36,281 nt of DNA from Candidatus Tenebribacter davisii (GTDB lineage: Bacteria; Cloacimonadota; Cloacimonadia; Cloacimonadales; TCS61), in contig JAVCCH010000071.1 in the NCBI GenBank assembly GCA_030765535.1, forward strand, positions 1 through 36,281. The letters are read 5' to 3'. Positions within the stretch are counted from its first letter, which is position 1, and the number at the start of each line of letters is the position of its first letter. Below the pieces are notes generated by a model. The model did no database searches. It was not told where the DNA came from and saw only the letters and a program-made list of their open reading frames with translations. Below are positions 3-19,373 of this stretch, piece after piece. A program made the position numbers and the translations under genes.

Positions 3-1631
3 CTCATACTTGGTTTTGACAAAGAAATTGTGCAAGTACCGGTAATGATAAGCTGCAATCAGAATGGGGCTAAAGTTTATGTTGATAATCAGCAAATTGG
101 ATTGACTCAGAATAAAATGCTAACATCAAACATTGGTTCTGGCCCTCGCGAAATCCGCATTGAAAAAGATGGTTTTGCTACTCAAACATTACAAGAAGAA
201 ATCTCTATGCAGAATAACTCATTTGACTTCAAACTTGTTCCCGCCATGCCAGCTGCAGTCACGATCAATTCTAACCCGGAAGGTGCGACTGTTTACATCG
301 ATAATTTGAAATTTGGTGAAACCCCTACTCAGAGTTTCTTCGATGCTGGAACTTATCCGATAAGAATAGAAAAGGAAAATTATGAAACTATAAATGAACA
401 AATAACAATCACTGAACTGGAAACAACAAAATCTTACATTTTGAATGATATAAGAGCTATTCTGACAATCAAGACACACCCCAATGCAACGGTGAAATTT
501 AATAGTGAAAGTTACAAAGGCAGTGTAATAAATCTGAAAATTGCTCCTCAAGTATTACAAATAACTGTGGAAATGCCCAAAGCAGAAACAATAAACCGCG
601 TGATTACCTTGAAACCCAAAACCAACGAAATTCTGGAAATTTATCCCGAAGTGCAGACTGGGACAGTGCAGGTAATGATAATTCCCAATTCTGCCGATAT
701 CGAACTGAACGGCGACGGCGGAGAACATTATACAGCCACTGGCAGAAAAACTTTTATAGATGTTCCGATTGGAACTTATGAGTTAATTGTAAAAGCAGAC
801 GACTATAAAACCCACACCGAAAGCTTCCAATTGCAGTTAGATGATACAGCTGCAAAACAGATAAAATTGGAAGAGGGCCGCGATGTGCCGAACAACATGA
901 TCTTCGTGGAGGGTGGCACCTTCCAGATGGGCAGCAATGAGGAAAGCAACGAGAAACCAATCCATTCAGTTTCGGTTAGCGATTTTTTCATTGGCAAGTA
1001 TGAAGTTACCCAGAAAGAGTGGAAAGAGGTGATGGGTAGTAATCCTTCCAATTGGAAAGGTGATAGCTTGCCTGTTGAAGAAGTTAGCTGGTATGATGCT
1101 GTTGAGTTTTGCAACAAGAAGAGCGAGATGGAAGGTTTGCAGAAATGTTATACCGGTAGCGGTAAGAATACAAAGTGCAACTTTTCTGCCAACGGATACA
1201 GATTACCCACCGAAGCTGAGTGGGAATATGCTGCACGGGGCGGCAGCAAATCCCGCAACTACAAATATTCAGGTTCGAATACTATTGGTGATGTAGCCTG
1301 GTACGCTGGTAATTCAGGCAGTTTATTTATAAGTAAGAAAACACATCCAGTTGGACAAAAACAAGCAAACGAACTGGGAATTTATGACATGGCAGGCAAC
1401 GTGTGGGAATGGTGCAGCGATTGGTATAGCAACAGCTACTACGAGAACAGCCCTCAGCGCAATCCACAGGGGCCTACAAGGAGCTTTCGCCGTATGAATC
1501 GTGGCGGCGGCTGGATCGGCAAAGCCGACTACTGTCGGGTTGCGTATCGCTATTTCTCCTATAGCGGCGCCCACGGTCCCCTCATCAGCTCTAGCTTCGT
1601 GGGCTTCCGTTTGCTTCGCAGTTCTAAATAG
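3..1631 (+). CDS. PEGA-repeat protein with C-terminal FGE/SUMF1-like domain (5' partial)
   Basis: The frame is open from the first complete codon (base 3) with no stop, and PEGA-like sequence is already under way, so the true start lies outside the window; the GTG at 30 is unlikely to be it. Four PEGA-like units are visible at roughly 40-235, 255-420, 460-640 and 665-860, with motifs such as NPEGATVYIDN and GTYPIRIEK. From about 891 to the end runs an FGE-sulfatase/C-type-lectin-fold domain: MIFVEGGTFQMGS, YEVTQKEW, YRLPTEAEWEYAARGG, GIYDMAGNVWEWCSDWY, and a terminal GFRLLRS. The catalytic cysteine pair of true formylglycine-generating enzymes is not complete: the first position (after RGGGW) is not Cys and only one Cys (YCRVAYR) is present, so enzymatic FGE activity is doubtful and a binding or display role is more likely. 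PEGA domains are generally surface-associated. The C-terminal segment looks hypervariable (see the separate entry). The next gene is a paralogue of the PEGA part. Confidence 0.88.
   Translation, partial: LILGFDKEIVQVPVMISCNQNGAKVYVDNQQIGLTQNKMLTSNIGSGPREIRIEKDGFATQTLQEEISMQNNSFDFKLVPAMPAAVTINSNPEGATVYIDNLKFGETPTQSFFDAGTYPIRIEKENYETINEQITITELETTKSYILNDIRAILTIKTHPNATVKFNSESYKGSVINLKIAPQVLQITVEMPKAETINRVITLKPKTNEILEIYPEVQTGTVQVMIIPNSADIELNGDGGEHYTATGRKTFIDVPIGTYELIVKADDYKTHTESFQLQLDDTAAKQIKLEEGRDVPNNMIFVEGGTFQMGSNEESNEKPIHSVSVSDFFIGKYEVTQKEWKEVMGSNPSNWKGDSLPVEEVSWYDAVEFCNKKSEMEGLQKCYTGSGKNTKCNFSANGYRLPTEAEWEYAARGGSKSRNYKYSGSNTIGDVAWYAGNSGSLFISKKTHPVGQKQANELGIYDMAGNVWEWCSDWYSNSYYENSPQRNPQGPTRSFRRMNRGGGWIGKADYCRVAYRYFSYSGAHGPLISSSFVGFRLLRSSK
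1488..1612 (+). other. Candidate DGR-type variable region in the FGE-like C-terminus
   Basis: The last 40 or so codons have the layout of variable regions targeted by diversity-generating retroelements: an RGG.W anchor, then Cys-Arg-x-Ala-x-Arg, then a run of dissimilar residues, then the conserved GFRL end. Nearly all variable positions use NNC codons (ATC, GGC, GCC, GAC, TAC, TTC, TCC, AGC, CAC, CTC), as expected if AAC codons of a template repeat had their adenines randomised. The usual Ser of RGGSW is Gly here (GGC for AGC), also an A-position change. The segment is GC-richer than the rest of the gene. No reverse transcriptase or template repeat is present in this window, so this is inference from pattern. 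Confidence 0.45.
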
Positions 1632-6186: not shown

Positions 6187-9100
6187 ATGAAGAAGTTATT
6201 TATTATAATTATTATATTTCTTCCAATAATGTTAAATGCACAAACTCCACCCGATACATTATGGACCAGAACTTACGGAGGAAATGGAGAGGATCATGGA
6301 GAATCGGTACTGCAATCATTCGATGGAAACTACATAATTTGCGGAGGAACATCATCTTATGGTGCAGGAGCCACCGATATTTATCTAATTAAAACGAATG
6401 AAATTGGTGATACTCTTTGGACAAAAGCCTATGGTGGGAACAACAATGATGACGGCTATTCGCTACAACAAACAACAGATGGCGGTTTCATCATTACAGG
6501 AGCGACTGAAAGTTATGGGACAGGAGCCACTGATGTTTATCTAATTAAAACTGATTTAAATGGTAATTCTCTTTGGACTAAAACTTATGGAGGAAGTGAT
6601 AGTGATCTTGGACGTTCAGTTCAACAAACTAATGATGATGGTTATATTATTGTAGGTGATACTTATTCCTCTGGTGCAGGGCTTGGAGATGTTTATTTGA
6701 TTAAAACAGATGCAAATGGAGACACGCTCTGGACACAAACTTTTGGTGGTGACTCAGCTGATGGTGGTTTATCAGTTAAACAAACATCAAGTGGAGGTTA
6801 TATTATTTCCGGATGGACACAATCCTTTGGTGTAGGAGGAACGGATGTCTATATAATAAAGACTGATGCAAATGGTGATTCACTTTGGACACGAACTTTT
6901 GGGGGAAGTACTGGAGAATGGGGTGAATCAGTTCTTGAAACAGAAGATAATGGCTATATTGTAGCTGGCTGGACTAACTCTTTTGGGGCTGGACAAGCAG
7001 ATGCATATTTAATTAAAATAGATGTTAATGGAGATTCGTTATGGACAAAGTTTCTTGGAGGGCCTAATACTGAAATTTGCACATCTATCTCTCATACTTT
7101 TGATGGTGGATATATTCTTACTGGAAATACTAACGACAATGATGTGGGGGATGTTTATTTGCTCAAAACAGATATGTATGGCAATGAACTATGGTCGAAA
7201 ATTATAGGTGGTAGTTTAGCAGATAATGGAAAATCAGTTGTGCAAACATTTGATGGAGAATATATAATTGCTGGAACTACACAATCTTTTGGAGCTGGTC
7301 TTTATGATTGTTGGCTTTTAAAAATCAAGAAACCAGATCACTTAATAAATATTCCATATGAATATCCTACAATCCAGGAAGGTATAAATGCAGCAGCAAA
7401 TGGAGATACCGTGCTTGTGCAACCGGGTACATATGTTGAGAATATCAACTATAACGGGAAAAATATAACGGTTGCTTCATTATTCTTAACAACACAAGAT
7501 ACATCATACATTTCTCAAACTATTATTGATGGAAATCAGAATGGAAGTGTAGTTACATTTGATAGTGGTGAGGATTCAACGTCTGTATTATGCGGCTTCA
7601 CAATTACTAATGGGAATAGTGCTGGGAATGGTGGAGGTATTTATTGCACTTTGTTATCAGCACCTCAAATTATTAATCTTATAATTAAAAACAACGATTC
7701 TTCAGTTTATGGCGGTGGTATTTGCTGTGATGATGGCTCTAATGCAATAATTGAAGATTGTGTGATTAAACAGAATAATTCTTCTCATGGAGGTGGAATA
7801 TTTTGTGAAATTAACGCTGACATAATAGTAAAAAACTCGACGATATACAATAACTCAGCCATTTATGGTGGAGGATTCTATTGTACTGAAGCTAATCCAG
7901 TTCTTTCTAATGTTCTAATCTATAATAATTATGCTTCATATTACGGTGGTGGAATTGTTTTTCACGGTACAATTACTCAACTTAGCAATTTAACAGTTTA
8001 TGGTAATTCAGCAGAAAGTTTTGGTGGGGGTATTTATACTACCGCGGGATCTGGAGTATTATTTTTAGATATCCTGAATAGTGTTTTTCATAATAATTCT
8101 CCAGAACAAATTAATGAATCATCTGGCACATTATTAGTTACATATTCAGACATTCAAAATGGATGGCCCGGAATAGGAAACATAGATAATGATCCCTTAT
8201 TTGCTGATAGTCTTAATAGTGATTTTAATCTATCAGAAAACTCACCTTGCATAGATGCTGGTGATCCAGATCCTCAATATGATGATCCTGATGGAACAAG
8301 AAATGATATGGGAGCGTTTTATTTCCAACAACCAATTGCAGATTTCTCGGCATCACCAACATCCGGTCACATACCTTTAACAGTAAATTTCTCAGATCAA
8401 TCGCAACCTGGACAAGAACCAATTATATCCTGGGAATGGGATTTTGATAACGATGGTACAATAGACTCAAATGATCAAAATCCAACATGGGTATATACTA
8501 CACCTGGTATTTATTCAGTTTCCCTAACTGTGTCTGATGGCAATAACACTGACGCAGAGATTAAGGAAGATCTGATAACTGTAGTCGATTCTCCAACTAT
8601 TATTGAAATACCTTTTGACTATCTTACTATTCAAGAAGGGATTAATGCGGCAGTTGAGGGTGATACTGTACTTGTACAACCCGGAACATATTTTGAGAAT
8701 ATCAATTACAATGGAAAGAACATCACTATTGGCTCTTTATTTCTAGTTATACAAGATACATCTTATATAGAAACTACTATCATTGATGGTAATAATAATG
8801 GAACTGTAGTTACATTTAATAATGCAGAGAGCGATTTAGCGCAGTTAATCGGATTTACAATTACTAATGGCAATAATAGTGGTATTAGATGCTGGACAAA
8901 CTGCAATCCTACATTATCGAATCTTAAAATTATTGGTAATAGTAGCCCTATTGGTGGTGGTATGTGGTTAGTTGGTGCAAGCCCTACAGTATCAGATTGT
9001 ATTATTTCCGGAAACAATTCAACGAGTGGAGGTTCTTCCGGTGGTGGAGGTGTTTTTTGTGGAGACTACTCTAATCCGGTTTTTGATTTTGTCGAGATTA

Positions 9101-14183: not shown

Positions 14184-14318
14184 ATGATTGAAATTGTAAA
14201 CTTATTGATGAAAATAATCGAAAGAGAAGAGCGTGTGAATAAACAAGTAAATAAGGATATTATCACGCTTATTGAAGGGAAGTACAGAAAGGAGACATTA
14301 TGGCGACAAGAACAATAG
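14184..14318 (+). CDS. Possible small ORF overlapping the CD-NTase start
   Basis: A 44-codon frame begins MIEIVNLLMKIIEREERV, starts 15 bases after the giant gene's stop, and ends at 14318, overlapping the nucleotidyltransferase ATG in another frame. AGGA lies about twelve bases upstream. It is AT-rich, unlike the following genes, rich in charged and hydrophobic residues and probably helical. It could be a short leader giving translational coupling, the truncated end of a host gene broken by island insertion, or chance. No family is recognised. Confidence 0.25.
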   Translation: MIEIVNLLMKIIEREERVNKQVNKDIITLIEGKYRKETLWRQEQ

Positions 14319-15175
14319 CAAACGGTTTTGACACCTTCCACAGGCGCATCACTCCGGGTGGTTACGAATCCGGGAGTGCCGCTTCTCACAAAGCTTCAAT
14401 TACCAGTCGACTGAAAACTTGTTATGACCTAAAGCGGCTGTTCTACTCAGGCTCAGCGAACAATGGGACAAGTATCTTCCACCACAGTGACGTGGACTTC
14501 TTCGCGCGGATTCCGACCAACAATCTTAAGAATAACTCGGCCACTTCGCTACGACAGATTAAGGAATGCCTGCAGGGAAGGTTCCCCAAAACAACTATCT
14601 ATGTTGACTCCCCGGCAGTTGTCCTAGACTTCGGCAGCTCGGACTGGGATATAGCTGAAGTCATCCCCGCTGACTATGTGAAAGAGAAAGAGGGCAAAAA
14701 CGTCTACGACATTCCAGATGGGACAACAGGATGGATGCGATCAAGCCCCTCGATGCATACCTCATACGTTCAAGACGAGAACACTCGGCTCAACAAGAAA
14801 CTCAAGCCACTCATCCGATTCCTCAAGGCGTGGAAGTACTACTGCAATGTGCCGATATCATCGTTCTACCTTGAGTTGAGGGCAACCAAGTGGATGGAAG
14901 CAGAAAACTCTATCGTTTATGATATTGATCTCTGCTCTCTCTTCAAGAAACTCGCCGCCAGTGGCCTTGCATCCATGCAGGACCCTAAAGGAATTTCTGG
15001 TTACGTTTGTGCCTGCGCAACTGAAGCTAAGAAGAGCGACGCCCTCTCGAAGCTTTCCACGGCCAAGACAAGAGCTGAAAAGGCGCGTGTTGCTGAAAGT
15101 ACGGGCAAGACCAACGAAGCAATTGATTGGTGGGATAGAGTGTTCGCGGGTAATTTCCCAAGTTACTACTATTAA
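14300..15175 (+). CDS. CBASS cGAS/DncV-like nucleotidyltransferase (CD-NTase, SMODS family)
   Basis: This 291-residue protein has the polymerase-beta-like nucleotidyltransferase active site: YSGS (Gly51-Ser52) with Thr57 following, then SDVDFF supplying Asp64 and Asp66, and a third acidic residue in VVLDF (Asp110). A helical C-terminal half (LIRFLKAWKYYCN... and a W..VF.G.FPSYYY ending) matches the OAS1_C/SMODS layout and normal family length. In CBASS such enzymes make cyclic di- or trinucleotides in response to phage infection; the product cannot be told from sequence alone. The ATG has an excellent AAAGGAG six bases upstream. The next gene encodes a four-TM protein, the expected effector. 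No Cap2/Cap3, HORMA or TRIP13 gene is nearby, so this looks like a minimal (type I-like) operon. Base composition is visibly GC-richer than flanking genes, indicating transfer. Confidence 0.85.
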   Translation: MATRTIANGFDTFHRRITPGGYESGSAASHKASITSRLKTCYDLKRLFYSGSANNGTSIFHHSDVDFFARIPTNNLKNNSATSLRQIKECLQGRFPKTTIYVDSPAVVLDFGSSDWDIAEVIPADYVKEKEGKNVYDIPDGTTGWMRSSPSMHTSYVQDENTRLNKKLKPLIRFLKAWKYYCNVPISSFYLELRATKWMEAENSIVYDIDLCSLFKKLAASGLASMQDPKGISGYVCACATEAKKSDALSKLSTAKTRAEKARVAESTGKTNEAIDWWDRVFAGNFPSYYY

Positions 15176-15215
15176 AACGATGTGCCATTACATACAGGCC
15201 GAAACAAGGATGAAT

Positions 15216-16043
15216 ATGACTAAACTAGAAACAATGCGGATCGATGATATCGATCGTTACTACAGACCAATTGAACGCATTGAGAGAATATCCTCAGCAT
15301 TATTCTGGGCATCCGCCGCTCTCTCTATTGTGGTTCTCTATTCCCAGTGCATACCGCAGGAATCATTGCGAGATGTTCCCACGCTTCTGTTCGCCACCAG
15401 CGTGATGTTAAATCTAATTCTTACGCTATATCTCAAATTCCATCTCATCCCCAAAGCTGAGGGAAAGCGAAGGAAGCAACTGCTATCAGACTCCTTTGAT
15501 GTGCCATTGACTCCGGAACAGACTCAGGGTTACTACAACAATCCTCTCTCACCTTCTATTCAGAAACTGGGAGCAAACGTGCTTGAGAACTCGTTCTTCT
15601 CGAAAGCAGTCTGTGGAAGAATGGCAATTCGAGAACGAGTAAAGGTGCTGATCTACTTTACGGTGTGGATTATTGCAGCCTACTGTCGCTATACTCCCCT
15701 TGAGCTTCTGGTTATAGTTACGCAAACATTGTTCTCGGGTGAGATCATTACTCGTTTGGTTCGGCTTGAAGTTCTACGTCACAGGAGCGAGGATCTCTTT
15801 GAGGAACTCTACCATGAGTTTCTTCACAAGGTCGACTTCACGAGTTCTACGGGCACAGCCTGTATACTCGACTCGTTCGCCACCTACGAAGCCGTAAAGG
15901 CCTCTGCGGCACTCAGACAATCGACAAGGATTTTTGAAGCAATGAACCCCCAACTTACGCGTGAATGGGGCGAGATCTGCAAAAGGTTAGGGTTGAAGGA
16001 AGAGAGCTTCAACAAGCCGAATGCATACGACGTCGGGAAGTAA
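15216..16043 (+). CDS. Four-transmembrane CBASS effector (S-4TM-like)
   Basis: The protein has four predicted membrane segments in two hairpins, residues about 25-43, 54-75, 142-158 and 162-179. They flank a roughly 65-residue soluble loop containing SFDVPLTPEQTQGYYNN and LGANVLENSFFSK; a soluble C-terminal region of about 95 residues follows. This layout matches the S-4TM class of putative pore-forming effectors found next to SMODS nucleotidyltransferases, which are thought to permeabilise the inner membrane on cyclic-nucleotide binding. Family assignment is from topology and context, not from a recognised signature. The frame is open further upstream inside the previous gene; the ATG at 15216 is preferred because AAGGA lies five bases before it. 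In-frame ATGs at 15210 and 15180 (the latter four bases after the CD-NTase stop) are alternatives. It shares the GC-rich composition of its partner, so the pair moved together. Confidence 0.72.
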   Translation: MTKLETMRIDDIDRYYRPIERIERISSALFWASAALSIVVLYSQCIPQESLRDVPTLLFATSVMLNLILTLYLKFHLIPKAEGKRRKQLLSDSFDVPLTPEQTQGYYNNPLSPSIQKLGANVLENSFFSKAVCGRMAIRERVKVLIYFTVWIIAAYCRYTPLELLVIVTQTLFSGEIITRLVRLEVLRHRSEDLFEELYHEFLHKVDFTSSTGTACILDSFATYEAVKASAALRQSTRIFEAMNPQLTREWGEICKRLGLKEESFNKPNAYDVGK

Positions 16044-17804: not shown

Positions 17805-19373
17805 ATGAAGGGACAAAAAAAGAACAAACCGCATGCAGTTATTTATGCACGTGTATCAACAAAAGAGCAAGAGCGGGAAGGTTATTCAATACCTGCTCAG
17901 TTAAAAATACTTAGGGAATATGCTCAACAAAATCACATTATAGTGCTCGATGAGTTTACAGATTCTGAGACAGGTGGCAAAGCTGGGAGAACAAATTTCA
18001 CGAAAATGATAGAGTATTTGTCAAAGGCAAGTTCAGGTAATTCTCAATGCTATGCTATCTTAGTTGAAAAAACTGATAGACTTTATCGGAATTTCAAGGA
18101 TTATGTACTTTTGGACGAATTAGATTTGGAGATTCACCTAGTGAAAGAAAATCAGATATTGTCTAAAGATTCCAGATCCAATGAGAAATTTATCCATGGA
18201 ATTAAAGTACTAATGGCTAAAAATTATATCGATAACTTATCTGAAGAAGTCAAGAAAGGAATGAGAGAAAAAGCTGAGCAAGGTATGTATCCTTCCAGGG
18301 CTCCTTTTGGATATATTAATGTCCGAGAAAATGATAAAAGTATAATAGTGCCCGATCCTGAGAATGCTCGTTATGTTCTGGAAATGTTTAAGATGTATTC
18401 AAGTGGAAATTACTCACTAAATGATCTTAAAACATACCTACAAAAGCAAAATGTCAGGCTCTTTAAATCTTCTACTAATGTAAATACAAGTGCGATCCAT
18501 AAGATTCTAAAGAACGACTTCTACATCGGAAAATTTGTATGGAATAATAAAGTATATATTGGTACATATGAACCAATAATTTCTAAGCACTTATTTGATG
18601 AAACCCAAAAAGCATTAAAAATGCGGGGTAGATCAAGTTCTAGGAAGAGCAAAAGAACTTATGTGTTCCAAGGCTTTGTGAAATGTGGAGAATGTGGCAG
18701 GTTGATGGTACCTGATTTTAAAAAGGACAAATATGTATATTACTTTTGTAAGGGTGGAACTTCAAAACAGGAGAGTTGTAGTAACAATGATTATGTAAGA
18801 GAAGAGGTCTTTGATGGATTGTTTAAAAAAATATTAAATAATCTATCTTTTAACGACGCCATTATCAGCTTAATTGTTAAAGCACTTAAAGAAAGCCATG
18901 TTGATGAAGAGAAATTTCACAAAGCAAGGCTAGAAAAACTGCACACAGAACTATCAAAAATCGATAAAAGATTATCCTTATTATATGAAGACAAGTTGGA
19001 CGGAGTTATATCTTTTGAGATGTATATGCAGAAACGTGAAGAATATACAAACAAAAAATTAGAGTTAAAGGCTCAAATCGATGAATCAGAACTGGCAAAC
19101 AATAATTATATAGATCAAGGCGTTCATTTGGTCGAACTTCTTGGAACTACTGCTGAATTGTACTCTTTGGGAAATGTTGAGCAAAAAAGAAAGATTATCA
19201 ATTTAATTGGGTCGAACTTTTCTTACGAAAATAGAAAGTTGGGCGTTCAGTATAGGCAACCTTTTGATCTTATTGCAAATATGAATGTTGACATTAAGAC
19301 AAAAAACGTCGCTAACTGCAATATTAGCGACGCTTTTCCACTTTGGTGGGCCCAAGAGGAATCGAACCTCTGA
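17805..19373 (+). CDS. Large serine recombinase (site-specific integrase)
   Basis: This 522-residue protein has the resolvase catalytic domain first (IYARVSTKEQ with Arg16 and Ser18; EKTDRLYR), then the Recombinase domain (about residues 165-275, ending YIGTYEPIISKHLFDE), a zinc-ribbon (CGECG ... YYFCKGG ... SC) and a coiled-coil region with many Lys/Glu. This is the architecture of phage/ICE-type integrases that insert or excise elements at specific att sites without needing long homology. The start has AAGGGG six bases upstream. The reading frame crosses the tRNA terminator hairpin and ends inside the antisense strand of tRNA-Met, so roughly the last 25 residues (ending WWAQEESNL) are host-derived. 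This suggests that the element end, and hence the attachment site, lies just before the terminator near 19290-19305. Whether it is still active is unknown; the catalytic core is intact. Confidence 0.9.
   Translation: MKGQKKNKPHAVIYARVSTKEQEREGYSIPAQLKILREYAQQNHIIVLDEFTDSETGGKAGRTNFTKMIEYLSKASSGNSQCYAILVEKTDRLYRNFKDYVLLDELDLEIHLVKENQILSKDSRSNEKFIHGIKVLMAKNYIDNLSEEVKKGMREKAEQGMYPSRAPFGYINVRENDKSIIVPDPENARYVLEMFKMYSSGNYSLNDLKTYLQKQNVRLFKSSTNVNTSAIHKILKNDFYIGKFVWNNKVYIGTYEPIISKHLFDETQKALKMRGRSSSRKSKRTYVFQGFVKCGECGRLMVPDFKKDKYVYYFCKGGTSKQESCSNNDYVREEVFDGLFKKILNNLSFNDAIISLIVKALKESHVDEEKFHKARLEKLHTELSKIDKRLSLLYEDKLDGVISFEMYMQKREEYTNKKLELKAQIDESELANNNYIDQGVHLVELLGTTAELYSLGNVEQKRKIINLIGSNFSYENRKLGVQYRQPFDLIANMNVDIKTKNVANCNISDAFPLWWAQEESNL
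19301..19332 (-). terminator. Rho-independent terminator of tRNA-Met
   Basis: A perfect 9-bp stem (CGTCGCTAA with TTAGCGACG) and 8-base loop, followed on the minus strand by six U. It lies 11 bases past the tRNA CCA end and within the recombinase reading frame. Confidence 0.85.

Follow-up and report, generated by a model that had tools for sequence, protein, structure and literature searches.

FGE-type targets of diversity-generating retroelements (DGRs), targets lying remote from their cassette and leftover targets are all known already, and the accessory protein Avd occurs in many DGR systems. The DGR of Treponema denticola serves multiple targets, and strains of that species without the reverse transcriptase (RT) and the template repeat (TR) retain leftover targets with their variable regions (VRs) (PMC4891356). 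A large RT-centred survey, which counted Cloacimonetes within an FCB group, states that remote or leftover targets are invisible to it (PMC8144416). The locus described here, at the edge of a contig of Candidatus Tenebribacter davisii, very probably belongs to the class that such a survey would pass over.

The gene at the contig edge and its C-terminal segment

The window, by which we mean the whole stretch of 36,281 nucleotides analysed, is contig C37 of a metagenome-assembled genome (MAG) of 3.0 Mb in 218 contigs, 95.3% complete and 1.8% contaminated. Its first gene (Table 1) lacks the 5' end and the start, the contig edge cutting inside the gene. Pfam places PEGA sequence (PF08308) at the N-terminal side of the product, followed by the FGE-sulfatase fold (PF03781, E=1.5e-55), and the closest named protein relatives include proteins of Cloacimonadota MAGs. 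The top PDB match by sequence is the DGR variable protein TvpA of T. denticola (2Y3C, E=8.7e-45), which is also the best fold match when the AlphaFold model is searched with Foldseek (E=2.1e-20, TMq 0.81); the mean pLDDT of the model is 79, and it is reduced within the VR. The original prediction, made from the DNA letters, had named the FGE/C-type-lectin fold as a known kind of DGR target, and these matches bear it out: the gene encodes such a fold with the VR at its C-terminus. Directly 3' of the gene lies a second PEGA gene, at 1776, with no DGR cassette and no RT.

When aligned with FGEs (SYLC..SYC), the protein lacks the first of their pair of active-site cysteines (GWIG..DYC). We therefore reject a catalytic formylglycine-generating function and, judging from this sequence change, suggest a role in binding. 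The insertion LFISK in the FGE domain accompanies the longer VR, and the two may be linked structurally.

Table 1. Features of the first gene of the window, with the template expected for its VR
Feature	Position	Strand	Basis
PEGA and FGE-sulfatase-fold gene, DGR-target-type protein	3..1631	+	Pfam PF08308 and PF03781; 76% identity to the G002 DGR target
FGE/C-type-lectin-fold domain	894..1619	+	PF03781; best PDB match TvpA 2Y3C by sequence and fold
Second insertion in the FGE domain, LFISK (five residues)	1323..1337	+	Alignment; missing from the three closest homologues
Variable region (VR)	1485..1622	+	Alignable to the G008 template, S-N-R-V-N-RGGSW...GFRLLRS; mismatches cluster at template adenines
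Hypervariable core, 29 codons, 18 NNC	1515..1601	+	Codon count
Five additional NNY codons, S G A H G	1563..1577	+	Comparison with the common 32-residue segment; placement is an alignment choice
3' anchor GFRLLRSSK, candidate IMH side	1602..1628	+	Equals the G008 template 3' flank in translation and the G006 gene end
Template expected for the window VR			Would carry TGYCGGGTTGCG-AAT-CGC and five additional codons of AAY type

The codons from RGGGW to GFR set the segment apart. Between conserved anchors, 25 of the 29 are of the form NNY and 18 (62%) are NNC, while in 9,076 other 29-codon windows, taken from the rest of the gene and from 12 other genes of the same contig, the mean number of NNC codons is 4.2 (SD 2.4) with a maximum of 14, and just one window reaches 25 NNY. 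GC content is 62% at 1500-1610; the whole window has 36% and the gene outside this stretch 41%, and no second 111-base stretch in the window matches that value. The predicted richness in NNC codons is thus confirmed, but the extent proposed for the segment, 1488-1612, requires adjustment: a real variable segment occupies it, while homology to templates runs from near 1485 to about 1622, and one inner codon, AAA (Lys), departs from the NNY form. The R..GFR segment exceeds its usual length of 32 residues by five codons. The substitution of Gly for Ser in the RGGSW motif, also predicted, is real; the codon is GGC, as a template AGC would be expected to yield, and the same change is found in VRs of relatives whose templates have been identified (for example, TR AGC to VR GGC at locus L053).

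Elsewhere in the window, a CBASS-like pair at 14300-16043 comprises a SMODS cyclase (PADLOC Cyclase, E=2.6e-117) and a 4TM effector (E=3.5e-92). This stretch looks GC-richer by eye, and a serine recombinase comes after it, at 17805-19373.

DGR cassettes in relatives and the search of the MAG

In RT searches across 60 relatives, roughly a dozen genomes of the order, the congeners G002 and G008 among them, yielded RTs of the DGR type (GNLTSQ/GNLSSQ, YMDD). At the G002 locus (L044, on contig C35), the order is target, Avd, RT and adenine-rich template, with Avd backed by NCBIfam NF033474 and PHROG 3206. This target and the window gene share 76% identity over residues 2-540, and the VR of the target is exactly the same segment. 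In G008, the RT and template lie on a contig of 3,010 bp that starts at the RT and is without a target. A third congener, G006, is 98% complete and gave no RT; it retains a VR-like gene with the same ending as that of the window, GFRLLRSSK. Several loci of relatives contain template/VR pairs whose mismatches fall mostly at template adenines and whose VR occupies the same C-terminal FGE segment; database homologues from further phyla likewise have such pairs, several of them with zero non-adenine mismatches. The DGR templates of this clade carry the same C-ending codons as the window segment.

Other loci among the relatives show related arrangements. At L105, all 14 mismatches of a template/VR pair fall at adenines, and a motif search of the 17-kb locus gave no RT. 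The one-contig genome G044 (L051) has a minus-strand VR near 8139 in which a template AAA is read as TGA, which ends the target gene immediately ahead of its RGGSW; this stop codon is probably DGR-made. G002 also carries, on contig C40 (L045), a second, different DGR-like array, with one AAT-rich template-like repeat, two VR-like copies (RVLF...GRFVG) and an RT.

The window VR was compared with the G008 template (SNRVNRGGSWNNNAKNCRVANRNNNNPDNSNNNLGFRLLRSSK), which is a congener's and not the window's own. At codon positions 1 and 2 in the gap-free half of the VR, its first 20 codons, changes are present at 12 of 19 adenines and at none of 21 other bases (Fisher P=9e-6). Over the full length, with the five-codon gap placed by hand, 22/36 adenines and 5/46 other bases are changed. 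Third codon positions differ in 9 of 20 cases, indicating that the G008 template is a cousin of the template behind the window VR rather than identical to it. Judged by non-adenine mismatches, the window VR fits the G008-type template (0/21, versus 2/21 with the G002-type), whereas a VR-like paralog on contig C36 of the same MAG fits the G002-type (0/21, versus 2/21 with the other type).

The original prediction placed an RT and a near-identical template repeat elsewhere in the genome; a search of the 218-contig MAG did not find them. No DGR-type RT (GxxxSQ, YMDD) was recovered from this 95%-complete assembly, in which a gap is possible; the RTs that it does contain number three, two of them group II intron RTs that pass the NCBIfam cut-off and the third DRT4-like. 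No Avd in the MAG exceeds the NF033474 cut-off, which only G002 passes. The template is absent from the assembly by BLAST, by adenine-degenerate pattern and by a generic FGE-template pattern, again with the possibility of a gap; as a positive control, the generic pattern recovers the G002 and G008 templates at 0 mismatches. BLAST of the VR within its own genome returned itself and short chance matches only, adenine-degenerate VR patterns matched only the VR itself in its own genome, the genus and 107 genomes of the order, and an exact template-like pattern had no match in viral contigs. What stands of the proposed DGR variable region is therefore its position, as in the VRs of homologues from the same genus and order, and its adenine-template signature; a DGR may or may not act on it now, the assembly having yielded no DGR RT, Avd or template.

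Two more VR-like FGE genes are present in the MAG, on C36 (L011/L138) and C15 (L012/L141), with no adjacent RT in the loci seen. The first 127 bases of the window are identical to the start of C36, and this shared sequence suggests that the window probably begins at an assembly fork, 127 being a common choice of k for de Bruijn graphs.

Origin and present state of the segment

We consider it improbable that the segment is an FGE-fold loop that diverged in the ordinary way without ever having been a DGR target, its NNC richness reflecting chance or selection for particular residues. Such an origin would agree with a genome in which neither a DGR-type RT nor a template was found, and the FGE family is generally variable at this segment. 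Adenine bias is not fully diagnostic, because the family varies at those very sites: a conserved, non-DGR paralog on contig C22 also departs from the template mostly at its adenines (14/21, versus 6/21). Nevertheless, that paralog has 0/24 NNC codons and is held constant across two species, 37 of 39 residues being identical in its G006 counterpart, whereas the window segment is an outlier in both NNC and GC content and shows no change at the 21 non-adenine bases at codon positions 1 and 2 of its gap-free half. Moreover, its nearest homologue outside its own genome is the G002 DGR target, which has a template. Acquisition of the 3' end from a GC-richer homologue, by horizontal transfer or gene conversion, would produce a local jump in GC, yet this jump falls on the VR borders seen in relatives and the C-ending codons are shared by the DGR templates of the clade, so that we find this origin scarcely credible. 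We conclude that a DGR very probably wrote the segment, whether the gene is now a leftover or is still diversified in trans.

Between these two states the evidence is nearly even. We lean, without strong conviction, to the former, in which the segment is the VR of a leftover target whose DGR has been lost or replaced. Adenine-mutagenic retrohoming, with an AAY-rich template as its source, would have rewritten the codons of a surface-exposed, ligand-binding loop in a TvpA-like protein. A cassette of the kind that stands beside the homologous gene in G002 (target, Avd, RT and template) would later have been lost or replaced in the window lineage, and the gene would then keep the final written binding surface. 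Homology, position, the adenine signature and the lack of a cassette in cis are shown here; that the segment is surface-exposed and binds a ligand, and that the cassette was lost, we infer. The grounds for our preference are that searches of three kinds came up empty in an assembly that is 95% complete, that G006 is likewise orphan, and that T. denticola strains devoid of RT and template have leftover targets (PMC4891356).

A working DGR elsewhere in the genome, missing from the MAG and still diversifying the window VR, is a serious possibility, though one we hold to be less than probable. The C-ending codons of the VR have not drifted to the T/A preference of the genome, a counterpoint to the leftover reading that could mean recent writing and hence a trans cassette that is still active. 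The MAG is only 95% complete, and the window probably begins at a fork, the shared start looking k-mer-sized. DGR loci break assemblies, as in the cassette contig of G008 with its missing target, and in T. denticola targets in trans are normal (PMC4891356). Against an active cassette, the RT, Avd and template searches are mutually independent and all negative in the 95%-complete assembly, and the VR-like genes of this genome differ in template type. This last observation admits a further reading, possible but rather doubtful, in which the genome keeps VRs from two DGR lineages, of G008-type on C37 and G002-type on C36, and has lost both cassettes. If so, repeated gain and loss of DGRs would leave a stock of frozen binding surfaces.

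Comparison with known systems

The window protein shares a fold family with the catalytic formylglycine-generating enzyme (PF03781), although without the first active-site cysteine it is not expected to be catalytic. It resembles the TvpA family of T. denticola (2Y3C) in having an FGE/C-type-lectin fold and, at the very C-terminal end, a VR in the same frame, RGGSW..C.V..R....GFR; it differs in its N-terminal PEGA domains, in a VR five residues longer and in that no template was found. Both conditions considered for the window gene, a target remote from its cassette and a leftover target without one, have precedents in the T. denticola DGR family. In the G002 system, the target is alike over nearly its whole length and has its VR at the equal place, but Avd, RT and template follow directly downstream, where the window has a second PEGA gene instead. 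The locus shows that codon composition by itself can reveal a DGR target, which relatives can then confirm even in a genome that lacks RT and template, and the window VR adds a case to the remote or leftover DGR targets already described.
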